This document shows, piece by piece, positions 16,638 through 21,810 of a stretch of DNA of 64,000 nucleotides. Position 1 is the first letter of the stretch; every line of letters begins with the position of its first letter. The notes below the pieces were generated by a model, which saw only the letters and a list, made by a program, of their open reading frames with translations, was not told the DNA's origin and did not search any database. Position numbers and translations under genes: made by a program. The DNA comes from Streptomyces sp. Tue6028. Its GTDB lineage: Bacteria > Actinomycetota > Actinomycetes > Streptomycetales > Streptomycetaceae. The stretch lies in NCBI RefSeq assembly GCF_002300165.1, contig NZ_MLCE01000005.1:124001-188000 (forward strand), written 5' to 3'.

Positions 16638-17807
16638 TCAGCCGACCGACGTCACCGTGCCGGCGCCGACCGTCCGGCCGCCCTCGCGGATCGCGAAGCC
16701 GAGCCCGGGCTCCAGCGGCACGTCGCGGCCGAGCTCCACCGTCATGGTGACGGTGTCCCCGGGCCGGGCCACCGCCGTCGCGCCGAGGTCGACGTCGCCG
16801 ACCACGTCCGCCGTGCGGATGTAGAACTGCGGCCGGTACCCGGTGGAGACAGGGGTCGTGCGCCCGCCCTCGCGTGCCGACAGCACGTACACCTGCGCCG
16901 TGAAGCGGCGACTGGGTACGACGCTGCCGGGCGCGGCGACGATGTGCCCGCGCCGGACCGCGTCGCGGGGCACCCCACGCAGCAGCAGCGCGACGTTGTC
17001 GCCGGCCTGGGCCTCCTCCATGGGCTTGCCGAAGGTCTCCAGGCCGGTGACCACCGTGTCCACCGCCGCGCCGAGCACTTCGACACGGTCTCCGACACGG
17101 ATGGTGCCGCGCTCCACGGCACCGGTGACGACCGTGCCGCGGCCGGTGATGGTGAGCACGTTCTCGACCGGCAGCAGGAACGGCGCGTCGAGGTACCGCT
17201 CGGGCATCGGCACATAGGTGTCCACCGCATCGAGCAGGGCGTCGATCGCCGCCGTCCACCGCGGGTCCCCCTCCAGGGCCTTGAGGCCGGAGACCCGTAC
17301 CACGGGTACGGAGTCGCCCCCGTAGCCGTGTGCGGAGAGCAGCTCGCGGACCTCCAGCTCCACCAGGTCGGTGAGCTCCTCGTCGCCCGCGTCGGCCTTG
17401 TTGAGGGCGACGACGATGTGGTCGACGCCCACCTGACGGGCGAGCAGCACGTGCTCGGCGGTCTGCGGCATGATCCCGTCCAGCGCGGAGACGACGAGGA
17501 TCGCCCCGTCGAGCTGGGCCGCGCCCGTGACCATGTTCTTGACGTAGTCGGCGTGGCCCGGCATGTCCACGTGGGCGTAGTGCCGGGTGTCGGTCTCGTA
17601 CTCGACGTGCGCGATGTTGATGGTGATGCCGCGCGCGGCCTCCTCCGGCGCCCGGTCGATCCGGTCGAACGGTACGAAGGTGCCGGACCCGCGCTCGGCG
17701 AGCACCTTGGTGATGGCGGCGGTCAGGGTGGTCTTGCCGTGGTCGACGTGCCCCATGGTGCCGATGTTCAGGTGCGGTTTGGTGCGCACGTAAGCCGTCT
17801 TGGGCAT
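16638..17807 (-). CDS. tuf3: elongation factor Tu, divergent paralogue (EF-Tu3)
   Basis: A complete 389-residue EF-Tu delivering aminoacyl-tRNA to the ribosome. G1 is GHVDHGKT (19-26), switch I RGITIN (59-64), G3 DMPGH (81-85) and G4 NKAD (136-139). It differs from the housekeeping protein: DMPGH replaces the usual DCPGH, there is a shorter C-terminal region and many unusual substitutions. It is not in a str operon with rpsL, rpsG and fusA; its neighbours are unrelated and it has its own terminator. This matches the Streptomyces tuf3 gene, which is reported to be growth-phase and stringent-response regulated. ATG at 17807 follows GAGG. Confidence 0.9.
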
Positions 17808-18124: not shown

Positions 18125-18859
18125 TCAGGGGCCGATGTTCTTGAGCGCCTCGCGCACGGACAGCGGAGCGAGACTGCCGCGCTCGCGGGCGACGAAGTCC
18201 CGTACCGCCCCGGGGTCCGTCTTCGCGTACTCGCGCAGACTCCAGCCGATCGCCTTGCGGATGAAGAAGTCGGGGTGCCCGGCCCGGCGGGCGCAGTACG
18301 AGAAGAGCCGCGCGGTGTCGGTGTCCTCCTTGTAGCGCAGTTGGTGGAGCAGCGCCGTGCGCGCGACCCACAGGTCGTCGTCCTCGATCCAGGCGTCCAT
18401 GTCGGCCTTCAGCTCCGGGTCGGCGGCCACCAGCCCGCCCACCACGTGCGCGGCGAGCGCGTCGACGGTGTCCCACCACGGGACGGTGCTGACCAGGTGG
18501 CGGGCCACCGGCAGGAATCCCGACGACAGCCGCTTCACGTGGCGGCGCAGGAAGTCGACGGCGAAGTAGTGGTATTCGCGCTCCGGCAGCTCCCAGCAGC
18601 GCAGGGCGAGCGCGGTGCAGTCCGCTTCGTCGGGGCGCGCCGTGCCCGCCAGGACGGTCCGCGACAGGGCGCGGCGGCCGGGCGTCGTCAGACCGAGGAA
18701 GGGGGCGACGTCCTTCATGTACGCGCGCATCGACGCGGCCCGGTCGGGGTCGGCCGCCGCGGAGTAGCCCGCGATGAGGCGCGGCAGTACGGCGTCCGCG
18801 AAAGCGCTGCTCGGCGCCGCGAACCGTGCACCTGACGTTCCGGAAGCTGTGACGCCCAT
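18125..18859 (-). CDS. DNA alkylation repair protein (AlkD-like, HEAT repeat)
   Basis: A 244-residue all-helical HEAT-like repeat protein of the AlkC/AlkD group, which excises alkylated bases such as N3- and N7-methylpurines. Characteristic segments are AYMKDVAPFLGLTTPGRRAL, EREYHYFAVDFLRRHVKRL, and the WWDTVDALAAHVVGGL active-site region with its Asp. ATG at 18859 sits 7 nt after TATGGT, so it is probably leaderless; an upstream ATG (18874) is less likely. It is divergent from the TVP38 gene. The family call is strong. Confidence 0.88.
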   Translation of the reverse strand: MGVTASGTSGARFAAPSSAFADAVLPRLIAGYSAAADPDRAASMRAYMKDVAPFLGLTTPGRRALSRTVLAGTARPDEADCTALALRCWELPEREYHYFAVDFLRRHVKRLSSGFLPVARHLVSTVPWWDTVDALAAHVVGGLVAADPELKADMDAWIEDDDLWVARTALLHQLRYKEDTDTARLFSYCARRAGHPDFFIRKAIGWSLREYAKTDPGAVRDFVARERGSLAPLSVREALKNIGP

Positions 18860-18908
18860 GAGACGAACCATACGGCGATCACACACATACGTCGGTTAGT
18901 GTCACCGG

Positions 18909-19709
18909 ATGCTCGATGCCACCACCCGCTCTGGGGGCACCGCCACGGCCACTCCCCGGGCCGCCGCTACGGAGCTCGCCCTCACCACTGAATCCACCGC
19001 CGCCGCGCCCGCGGCACTGATCGCCGGGCGCACCCGGCTGGCCGCCCGGTGCGGCAGAGTGCTGCTGTCGCCCTGGTCGCGCTTCTCGCTGCTCGTGGCG
19101 CTGCTCGCGGCGGCCGCGTCGACCGTTCTGCTGTTCGAACCACAGCGCCTGCTGGCCGACGGCTGGCCACCTCACCTCGGGGGCGCGGCGGCAGCCGCCG
19201 CGTTCGCCGTGGCGTACGGGCTGTGCACGGTCGCCTTCGTGCCCCGTCCGCTGCTCAATCTCGCGGCGGGCGCCCTCTTCGGCTCCCAACTGGGCCTGGG
19301 CACCTCGCTCGCGGGCACGGTCCTGGGTGCCGGGGTCGCCTTCGGGCTGGGCCGGGTGCTCGGGCAGGACGCGCTGCGTCCGCTGCTGCGCGGCCGTTGG
19401 CTGAAGGCCGCGGACGGTCAGCTCAGCAGACACGGGTTCCGCTCGATGATGGTGGCCCGGCTGTTCCCCGGGGTGCCGTTCTGGGCCGCCAACTACTGCG
19501 CGGCCGTCTCCCGCATGGGCTGGATGCCCTTCCTCCTCGCCACCGCGCTCGGTTCGATCCCGAACACGGCCGCCTACGCCGTCGCCGGCGCGCGGGCCTC
19601 GACGCCGACGTCGCCCGCGTTCCTGATCGCCATGGGCTGCATCGCGGTGCCGGGTCTCGTGGGCGCGGTGGTGGCGTGGCGCAAGCGGCACCATCTGCGC
19701 GCCACCTGA
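18909..19709 (+). CDS. TVP38/TMEM64 family (DedA-superfamily) membrane protein
   Basis: A 266-residue membrane protein with a long Ala/Thr-rich N terminus and the SNARE-associated/VTT core: VPRPLLNLAAGALFGSQLGL, then GTVLGAGVAFGLGRVLGQDA and HGFRSMMVARLFPGVPFWAANYCAAVS. Family members are linked to lipid scrambling or transport of lipid-linked carriers. ATG at 18909 lies 6 nt after TAGTGT, a leaderless arrangement. It is divergent from the AlkD-like gene with a gap of only 49 nt. Confidence 0.84.
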   Translation: MLDATTRSGGTATATPRAAATELALTTESTAAAPAALIAGRTRLAARCGRVLLSPWSRFSLLVALLAAAASTVLLFEPQRLLADGWPPHLGGAAAAAAFAVAYGLCTVAFVPRPLLNLAAGALFGSQLGLGTSLAGTVLGAGVAFGLGRVLGQDALRPLLRGRWLKAADGQLSRHGFRSMMVARLFPGVPFWAANYCAAVSRMGWMPFLLATALGSIPNTAAYAVAGARASTPTSPAFLIAMGCIAVPGLVGAVVAWRKRHHLRAT

Positions 19710-19814: not shown

Positions 19815-20071
19815 GACGGCTCGCGCCCCATGCGCGGAAGCCGGCTTCGGCGGTCCGCGCCGTCCACGGAAACCGGCCTCGGCAGCTCGCGCCGCGCGAG
19901 AAAACCGACCGGGCAGTCCGCGCCCTCCGCGGAAACCCGCCTCGGCAGCTCGCGCCGCGCGAGAAAACTGACCGGGCAGTCCGCGCCGTCCACGGAAACC
20001 GGGCTCGGCAGTCCGCGCCGCGTACGAAACCCGACCGCGGCAGTCCGCGCCGTCCGCGGAAACCCGCCGGG
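19815..20071. repeat. 32-bp tandem repeat array, eight units
   Basis: Contiguous units at 19815 (35 bp), 19850, 19882, 19913, 19945, 19976, 20008 and 20040 (31-32 bp each), all close to GCAGTCCGCGCCGTCC followed by CGGAAACC. Two sub-types alternate: one with CCGTCCNCGGAAACC, the other with CCGCGCGAGAAAAC. There are no spacers. The array fills the gap right up to the 3' end of the thiolase gene. Confidence 0.9.
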
Positions 20072-20076
20072 GCTTG

Positions 20077-21246
<1,170 letters not shown>

Positions 21247-21298
21247 GTTCGATCTCCAGACTCACTCAGTTCGTTTTCCAAACCCGCTAAGTGACTCA

Positions 21299-21342
21299 AG
21301 AGTAGCTTAGTGGGTTGGATAATCCAACCCACCCGGTAGACT
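21299..21342. promoter_or_regulatory. shared HxlR/thiolase promoter-operator
   Basis: A perfect palindrome GTGGGTTGGAT-A-ATCCAACCCAC (21310-21332) supplies both -35 elements. On +: TTGGAT (21315-21320), 16 nt, TAGACT (21337-21342), then ATG 6 nt later. On -: TTGGAT (complement 21322-21327), 17 nt, TACTCT (complement 21299-21304). A protein bound at the palindrome must block both promoters. Confidence 0.82.
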
Positions 21343-21348
21343 GATGGC

Positions 21349-21810
21349 ATGAAGGACGCACGCCCCTGCTCGATCGCCGACACCCTGGCCCTGGTCGGCG
21401 AGAAGTACTCCCTGCTCGTCCTGCGCGAGGTGTCACTGGGCGCCCGGCGGTTCGACCAGCTGGTCCGCAACATCGGCGCCCCGCGCGACGTGCTGACGGC
21501 ACGCCTCAAGCGCCTCGTCGACGCCGGCGTACTGGAGAAGGTCGAGTACAGCGACCGCCCCAAGCGCTATGAGTACCGGCCCACGTCGTCCGGCCTGGAG
21601 CTGGTACCGGTCCTGATGACGCTGATGGCCTGGGGCGACCGCCATCTGCACGCGGACGGCGACCGTCCCATGGTGATCGAGCACATCTGCGGCCACGAAC
21701 TGGTCCCGCAGATCGTGTGCGCCGAGTGCCGCGAGGATGTGCACCAGCACGACCTGACGGCCCACCCGCAGGCACCCGGCTGGACGGTGACGGGCCCCGC
21801 GGTGGCCTAG
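21349..21810 (+). CDS. HxlR/MarR-like transcriptional regulator
   Basis: A 153-residue regulator. The N-terminal winged helix matches HxlR (CSIADTLALVGEKYSLLVLR, FDQLVRNIGAPRDVLTARLK, then the wing RPKRYEYRPTSSG). A C-terminal extension contains CGHELVPQIVCAECREDVHQH, a Cys/His cluster (C-x11-C-x2-C) that could bind metal; this is seen in a subset of HxlR proteins. The ATG is 6 nt after TAGACT, so it is probably leaderless. It is divergent from the thiolase gene and is its likely repressor. Confidence 0.88.
   Translation: MKDARPCSIADTLALVGEKYSLLVLREVSLGARRFDQLVRNIGAPRDVLTARLKRLVDAGVLEKVEYSDRPKRYEYRPTSSGLELVPVLMTLMAWGDRHLHADGDRPMVIEHICGHELVPQIVCAECREDVHQHDLTAHPQAPGWTVTGPAVA

Follow-up and report, generated by a model that had tools for sequence, protein, structure and literature searches.

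The gene of an HxlR/DUF24-family regulator and a divergently oriented thiolase gene are separated here by a 102-bp intergenic region that contains a long palindrome. This raises the question of whether one short site could control both genes, and of which protein would bind to it. A preliminary description had proposed that a single palindrome provides the -35 boxes of both promoters and that its occupation should repress the two genes at once. We examined this proposal in the window, as the whole analyzed stretch of 64 kb is called here, and in related loci. The features discussed are collected in Table 1.

The palindrome and the genes beside it

The palindrome (O1, GTGGGTTGGAT-A-ATCCAACCCAC) is real and perfect, with 11-nt arms that are 100% complementary and 1 nt between them. 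It is unique in the window, since no other perfect palindrome with 11-bp arms and a spacer of 0 or 1 was present in the 64 kb; the mean number in 30 whole-window shuffles was 0.17 per shuffled window. Dinucleotide shuffles of the 102-bp intergenic region equalled O1 in 1 of 20,000 cases. The window was also scanned with a matrix for which 60 distinct O1 sites were taken from loci with a 32-bp spacing (see below), leaving out the window and its group. O1 ranked first among 63,978 positions (34.6 bits vs. 9.1 bits for the second), and the second was a degenerate palindrome on the thiolase side (O2); these were the two top-scoring sites in the 64 kb, the third position reaching -5.2 bits. This matrix was relied on instead of a blind search for paired palindromes, which was noisy and chose a shifted register even in the window.

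In the 7.96-Mb genome to which the window belongs, GGTTKGAWNWTCMAACC with at most 1 mismatch had no match besides O1. The looser RGTTKGANNNTCMAACY, also with at most 1 mismatch, occurred at three further places, each within a frame that has a Pfam match, one to DNA gyrase B (gyrB), one to a response regulator, and one to an NMT1-like protein. Since the loose pattern had no match outside coding frames in this genome beyond the local site, the switch looks local, and a wider regulon was rejected.

Profile matches well above the curated cut-offs identified the flanking genes as the HxlR (PF01638) and thiolase (TIGR01930) pair named in the preliminary description. The model of the HxlR monomer (mean pLDDT 91) displayed a winged-helix fold with residues 46-58 as the recognition helix, and matched structures 7kd3, 4a5n, 7bzg, 5hs7, and 4hqe; the predicted fold agrees with the DNA-bound relatives among them (7bzg and 4hqe). 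The top-ranked solved structures were PA1374 (4gcv) and PA1607 (2f2e) of Pseudomonas aeruginosa, with 136-144 columns aligned, and these proteins resemble it in sequence also. Cys7 was invariant in close (114/114, at least 66% identity) and distant relatives (35/35, 36-58% identity), and aligns with a cysteine of 4gcv, 2f2e, and 7kd3. By its position, it may be the electrophile-sensing cysteine of the family, a role assigned to the N-terminal cysteine in PMC7835342 and PMC8063818. The conserved cysteine is the only feature shared here with the class of thiol redox or electrophile sensors (YodB, HypR, QsrR). The product of the gene at 21349-21810 also carries a conserved C-terminal HxC...CxxC tail (residues 112-127), which could be a metal site: Cys114 was kept in 107/114 close and 27/35 distant relatives, Cys124 in 114/114 and 34/35, and Cys127 in 114/114 and 35/35, respectively, and His112 was invariant across an alignment of 27 rows.

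Table 1. Location of genes, predicted operators, and proposed promoter elements in the window.
Feature	Position	Strand	Remarks
Thiolase / acetyl-CoA C-acyltransferase gene, divergent	20077..21246	-	PF00108, PF02803; TIGR01930, 469.8 bits (cut-off 240.55)
Candidate weak third site O3	21243..21265	.	Overlaps thiolase start codon and ribosome-binding site
Predicted operator O2, degenerate palindrome, thiolase side	21265..21287	.	Core 21267-21285, centre 21276
Thiolase -10, TACTCT	21299..21304	-	Begins 17 bp from the centre of O1
Predicted operator O1, perfect 23-bp palindrome	21310..21332	.	19-bp core 21312-21330, centre 21321
Proposed HxlR -35, TTGGAT	21315..21320	+	Inside O1; spacing and conservation
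Proposed thiolase -35, TTGGAT	21322..21327	-	Inside O1
HxlR -10, TAGACT	21337..21342	+	6 nt before ATG 21349
HxlR/DUF24-family regulator gene, 153 aa	21349..21810	+	PF01638, 70.3 bits (curated cut-off 20.8)

Promoter geometry and second sites in the orthologous loci

Of 236 related loci in a scan of genome contigs, the 80 best were kept, all with Streptomyces titles; a thiolase match was present in 79 of these 80, the remaining one (L043) being truncated. A near full-length match with at least 59% identity occurred in 56 of 147 sampled genomes of the order (own genome included; counted from the listing). The test for a divergent neighbouring thiolase was passed by 111 loci (78 of the best 80; 28 of the 29 loci L084-L112; L115 and L127-L129; and the window). 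Nine with identical 170-base intergenic regions were merged, giving 102 loci, window included, all orthologues coming from one genus (Streptomyces) and not being independent. Loci left out were L001, L082, and L083 (own copies), L043 (missing upstream), L018 and L088 (thiolase match starting only at residue 95, >400 bp away), L113 (thiolase match at a distance of 911 bp), L114 and L126 (stretch without a thiolase match), and more distant loci. The conservation asked for in the preliminary description was found: the palindrome was kept together with the divergent pair in relatives.

Hexamers and spacers were read by eye, and distances from the -10 boxes to the operator centre were measured again separately. 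Re-reading bore out the presence of TTGGAT on both strands, with spacers of 16 and 17 nt: on the plus strand it is followed after 16 nt by TAGACT and, 6 nt later, by the ATG, and on the minus strand (21327-21322) after 17 nt by TACTCT (21304-21299). One palindrome thus stands in register with both -10 boxes in the window. The sigma-70 -35 consensus is TTGACA, to which TTGGAT fits poorly (3/6 positions). A scan of 21200-21450 on both strands with the strict sigma-70 consensus found no promoter, so that the -35 label is based on fixed spacing and conservation.

On the thiolase strand, the distance between an operator centre and the first base of a TANNNT hexamer was exactly 17 bp in 101/102 loci (the exception being L020), and any other distance between 10 and 25 bp occurred in at most 2 loci. 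The hexamer itself varied (TATGGT in 69 loci, TACTCT in 9, TACGGT in 8, TACCGT in 4, and others), indicating that the 17-bp spacing is not mere copying. On the HxlR strand, TANNNT preceded a start codon by 6-7 nt in 100/102 loci, as TAGACT in 77. At this distance transcription would be expected to start on or beside the start codon, and the HxlR mRNA is therefore probably leaderless; "unusually compact", as the layout had been called, is a fair term on this side.

A single palindrome common to both promoters was found in 64/102 loci (distance of the HxlR -10 from the centre, 15-17 bp in 63 and 18 bp in one). The two promoters lay on different operator copies in 22/102 (15-17 bp in 19 and 19 bp in three), and in 14/102 the HxlR -10 was 26-27 bp from the centre, too distant for a -35 borne by the operator. 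No HxlR -10 was found in two loci (L020 and L115). This pattern indicates that nearly all of the loci have the operator fused to the thiolase promoter and that most have it fused to the HxlR promoter. To describe a single palindrome as shared by the two promoters is accurate for the window and for most of the loci; it is not a rule, and the description missed O2 and with it the array. The interval proposed, 21299-21342, was correct as given and ended before this second operator.

The centre of O2 lies 45 bp from that of O1. Taking at least 15/19 letters of a loose consensus as a second site, one was present at 32 or 44-45 bp in 97/102 loci; on the thiolase side, the spacing was 32 bp in 80, 44-45 bp in 17 (window included), and otherwise in 5. 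In the tree, 15 of the 17 loci with the longer spacing cluster as one group, L009 and L128 falling outside it. The 45-bp spacing needs three changes on the tree, and may have a single origin. Because 45 bp corresponds to about 4.3 helical turns, cooperation between O1 and O2 on the same face of the DNA is doubtful in the window; it is possible at 32 bp. A third operator (O3) is weakly supported: this candidate ranked fourth in the window (-5.9 bits), and its offset (-22) scored above -10 in 4/17 loci of the 45-bp group, against one locus at offset -30 and none at 13 other offsets.

A predicted repressor acting on both genes

The reading that we consider likely is that the HxlR/DUF24 protein represses its own gene and, through the two-site array, the thiolase gene as well. 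From the sequence, geometry, conservation, and tracking of the core by the helix (see below), we infer binding, repression, dimer occupancy, and transcription starts in the following way. A homodimer of the winged-helix protein would bind O1 as its main operator, and this one dimer would lie across the -35 regions of the HxlR and thiolase promoters; assuming transcription from 7 nt past each -10 box, the O1 centre would fall near -28 at the HxlR promoter and near -29 at the thiolase promoter. The regulator would in this way repress its own gene, with its probably leaderless transcript, together with the thiolase gene, and a second dimer on O2, within the thiolase leader, would tighten repression of the latter. 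Modification of Cys7 by an electrophile or oxidant, or binding of a ligand, would release the dimer, the inducer being a guess. Thiolase would then be made, and newly made HxlR would restore repression. The geometry of one site at both promoters makes it plausible that both genes are switched off at once, and the conservation of O1 with the divergent pair in relatives favors the repressor; the degenerate O2 of the window and the poor fit of the -35 hexamers to sigma-70 speak against it, as do the loci described below in which no site or none of the core patterns was recognized.

Unequal control of the two promoters, with O2 dominant at the thiolase gene and O1 serving mainly for autoregulation, is unlikely. 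In its favor are the frequency of second sites at 32 or 44-45 bp, the 22 loci in which the promoters use different copies, and locus L126, whose fetched stretch shows O1 alone; what tells against it is the degeneracy of O2 in the window (9.1 vs. 34.6 bits). L126 (68% identity) offers a natural test of which site goes with which gene. O1 is kept there (AGGTTGGGAATCCCAACCC), no thiolase match and no O2 were seen in the fetched stretch, and the HxlR gene follows a frame resembling, by eye, the VTT-domain gene of the window.

There is a rather small chance that HxlR binds the array but activates the thiolase gene, with or without repressing its own. The fusion of operator and thiolase promoter in 101/102 loci would suit an activator, and so would the precedent of the family's namesake. 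The HxlR of Bacillus subtilis resembles the window's protein in family (PF01638), fold (7bzg), and a cysteine near the start of helix 1; unlike the repressor predicted here, it activates hxlAB and is described in PMC7835342 as an activator that senses formaldehyde through a Cys11-Lys13 crosslink. The positions expected here are those of blocking, since the O1 centre would fall near -29, on top of the -35, and O2 past the expected start. In addition, the sequence C7-S8-I9 has no lysine two residues past the cysteine and thus lacks the formaldehyde-sensing arrangement, provided that Cys7, equated with Cys11 by position and not by alignment, is its counterpart.

The probable binding protein and a possible recognition code

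Forty-six further HxlR loci were compared with shuffles (floor 1 in 201); a site was present at P < 0.01 in 19 and not in 27, L114 (60% identity; P = 0.10) being among the latter. Four of the 19 are thiolase loci (L115 and L127-L129), and others adjoin DUF1304 (L117) or MFS genes (L118, L124, and L131), so that the operator accompanies the regulator and not the thiolase; for L119 there was no match. Other HxlR genes, with 37-47% identity, had palindromes of the same frame with a different core.

When 85 loci were sorted (including the window, the thiolase loci L115 and L127-L129, and L201, an orthologue from the genome of L086 counted within the later batch of 40), the inner core tracked helix residues 45-47 in every one of the 32 assignable loci, and none of the four core patterns was found in the other 53. 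The assigned loci comprised PRD, PTD, or STD helices with a TTKGA core (13 loci, four of them, the window and L127-L129, with a thiolase), SRK with TTCC or TTCT (11 loci), ARN with a CATGATG-like core (5 loci), and PRA with TTCG (3 loci). In shuffled upstream regions these patterns occurred in at most 0.5% of loci. The later batch of 40 gave 8 matches, all on-class (5 SRK, 2 PRA, and 1 ARN), and is not a strict hold-out, the classes having been noticed in the first batch and the exact patterns set with the palindromes of both batches in view. Within it, none of the 4 D-type loci matched, L201 among them, and 1 of 13 ARN loci did.

This tracking is a correlation that backs HxlR as the binder and hints at a code. 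Since sites of the same frame flank HxlR genes beside non-thiolase genes, and since the core follows the helix, HxlR is likely the protein that binds the palindrome. We see even odds for the further proposal that actinobacterial HxlR proteins follow a readable code, in which an RGTT...AACY frame would be common, residues 45-47 would set the inner bases (PRD/PTD, TTKGA; SRK, TTCC/TTCT; PRA, TTCG; ARN, CATGATG-like), and paired sites at set spacings would be fused to promoters.

Several HxlR loci carry palindromes in pairs. Upstream of the SRK-helix genes L144, L148, L151, L152, L157, L159, L184, and L198, paired GGGTTCCCTGAGGGAACCC-like palindromes are separated by 42-47 bp, or in L159 by 28 bp. 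In the window's own genome, the paralogue L133 (C7:133274-133678) has two GTTCGTTCAYTGAAC palindromes 44 bp apart upstream, opposite an MFS gene, and the paralogue L134 (C25:344188-344475; 36% identity) has AGCTTGGAAAGTCCAACAA and TGCTTGGTTTTACCAAGTG upstream, 21 bp apart. The core upstream of L134 is similar to that of O1 (P = 0.015), and cross-talk with this paralogue is possible.

Thiolases are often under TetR-type control, so that a different regulator, such as a TetR-type fatty-acid regulator, might occupy the palindrome; we regard this as very unlikely, given the same-frame sites beside HxlR genes with non-thiolase neighbours and the assigned cores that follow the HxlR helix. A chance palindrome or an RNA hairpin or terminator has negligible probability and was rejected, for although a perfect repeat with 11-bp arms turns up somewhere in about 1 in 6 shuffled windows, the intergenic shuffles and the geometry conserved across loci oppose chance, the terminator scan was negative, and the palindrome lies upstream of both expected starts and so in neither RNA.

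Divergent autoregulated repressors of the HxlR/DUF24 family are known, as in the case of QorR. This actinobacterial DUF24 regulator of Corynebacterium glutamicum reportedly acts on the divergent gene qor2 and on itself from one intergenic site, its target being said to be a quinone oxidoreductase, unlike the thiolase of the window. The kind of system is therefore familiar, and the array together with the possible code is the interesting part. YodB of B. subtilis, a DUF24 regulator of azoR1, offers a further comparison; according to PMC8063818, it is a winged-helix dimer with a reactive N-terminal cysteine that prefers the palindrome TACT-N7-AGTA, its two HTH motifs being taken to bind consecutive major grooves. 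The window's protein is like it in its predicted winged-helix dimer, N-terminal cysteine, and predicted palindromic operator, and unlike it in having another core, a longer palindrome, a two-site array on divergent promoters, and the HxC...CxxC tail. Among the open-access papers listed in our searches, no title or abstract opening pointed to an operator map for a Streptomyces HxlR regulator or tied HxlR to a Streptomyces thiolase. HxlR/DUF24 genes are abundant in these bacteria, the matches numbering 1-17 per genome in the genus of the window and reaching 23 in a different family of this order (147 genomes). If the fixed geometry and the helix-tracking core hold true, HxlR targets would be readable from sequence.

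Other elements were observed on the thiolase side of the window. A tandem repeat (19833-20068) lies just downstream of the thiolase gene and can be described as a 63-bp unit in 3.5 copies with 87% matches, from 19849, or as 7.4 copies of 32 bp. An EF-Tu gene is located at 16638-17807 on the minus strand (PF00009, PF03144, and PF03143), and near it lie genes for DNA alkylation repair (18125-18886) and for the VTT-domain protein (18909-19709).
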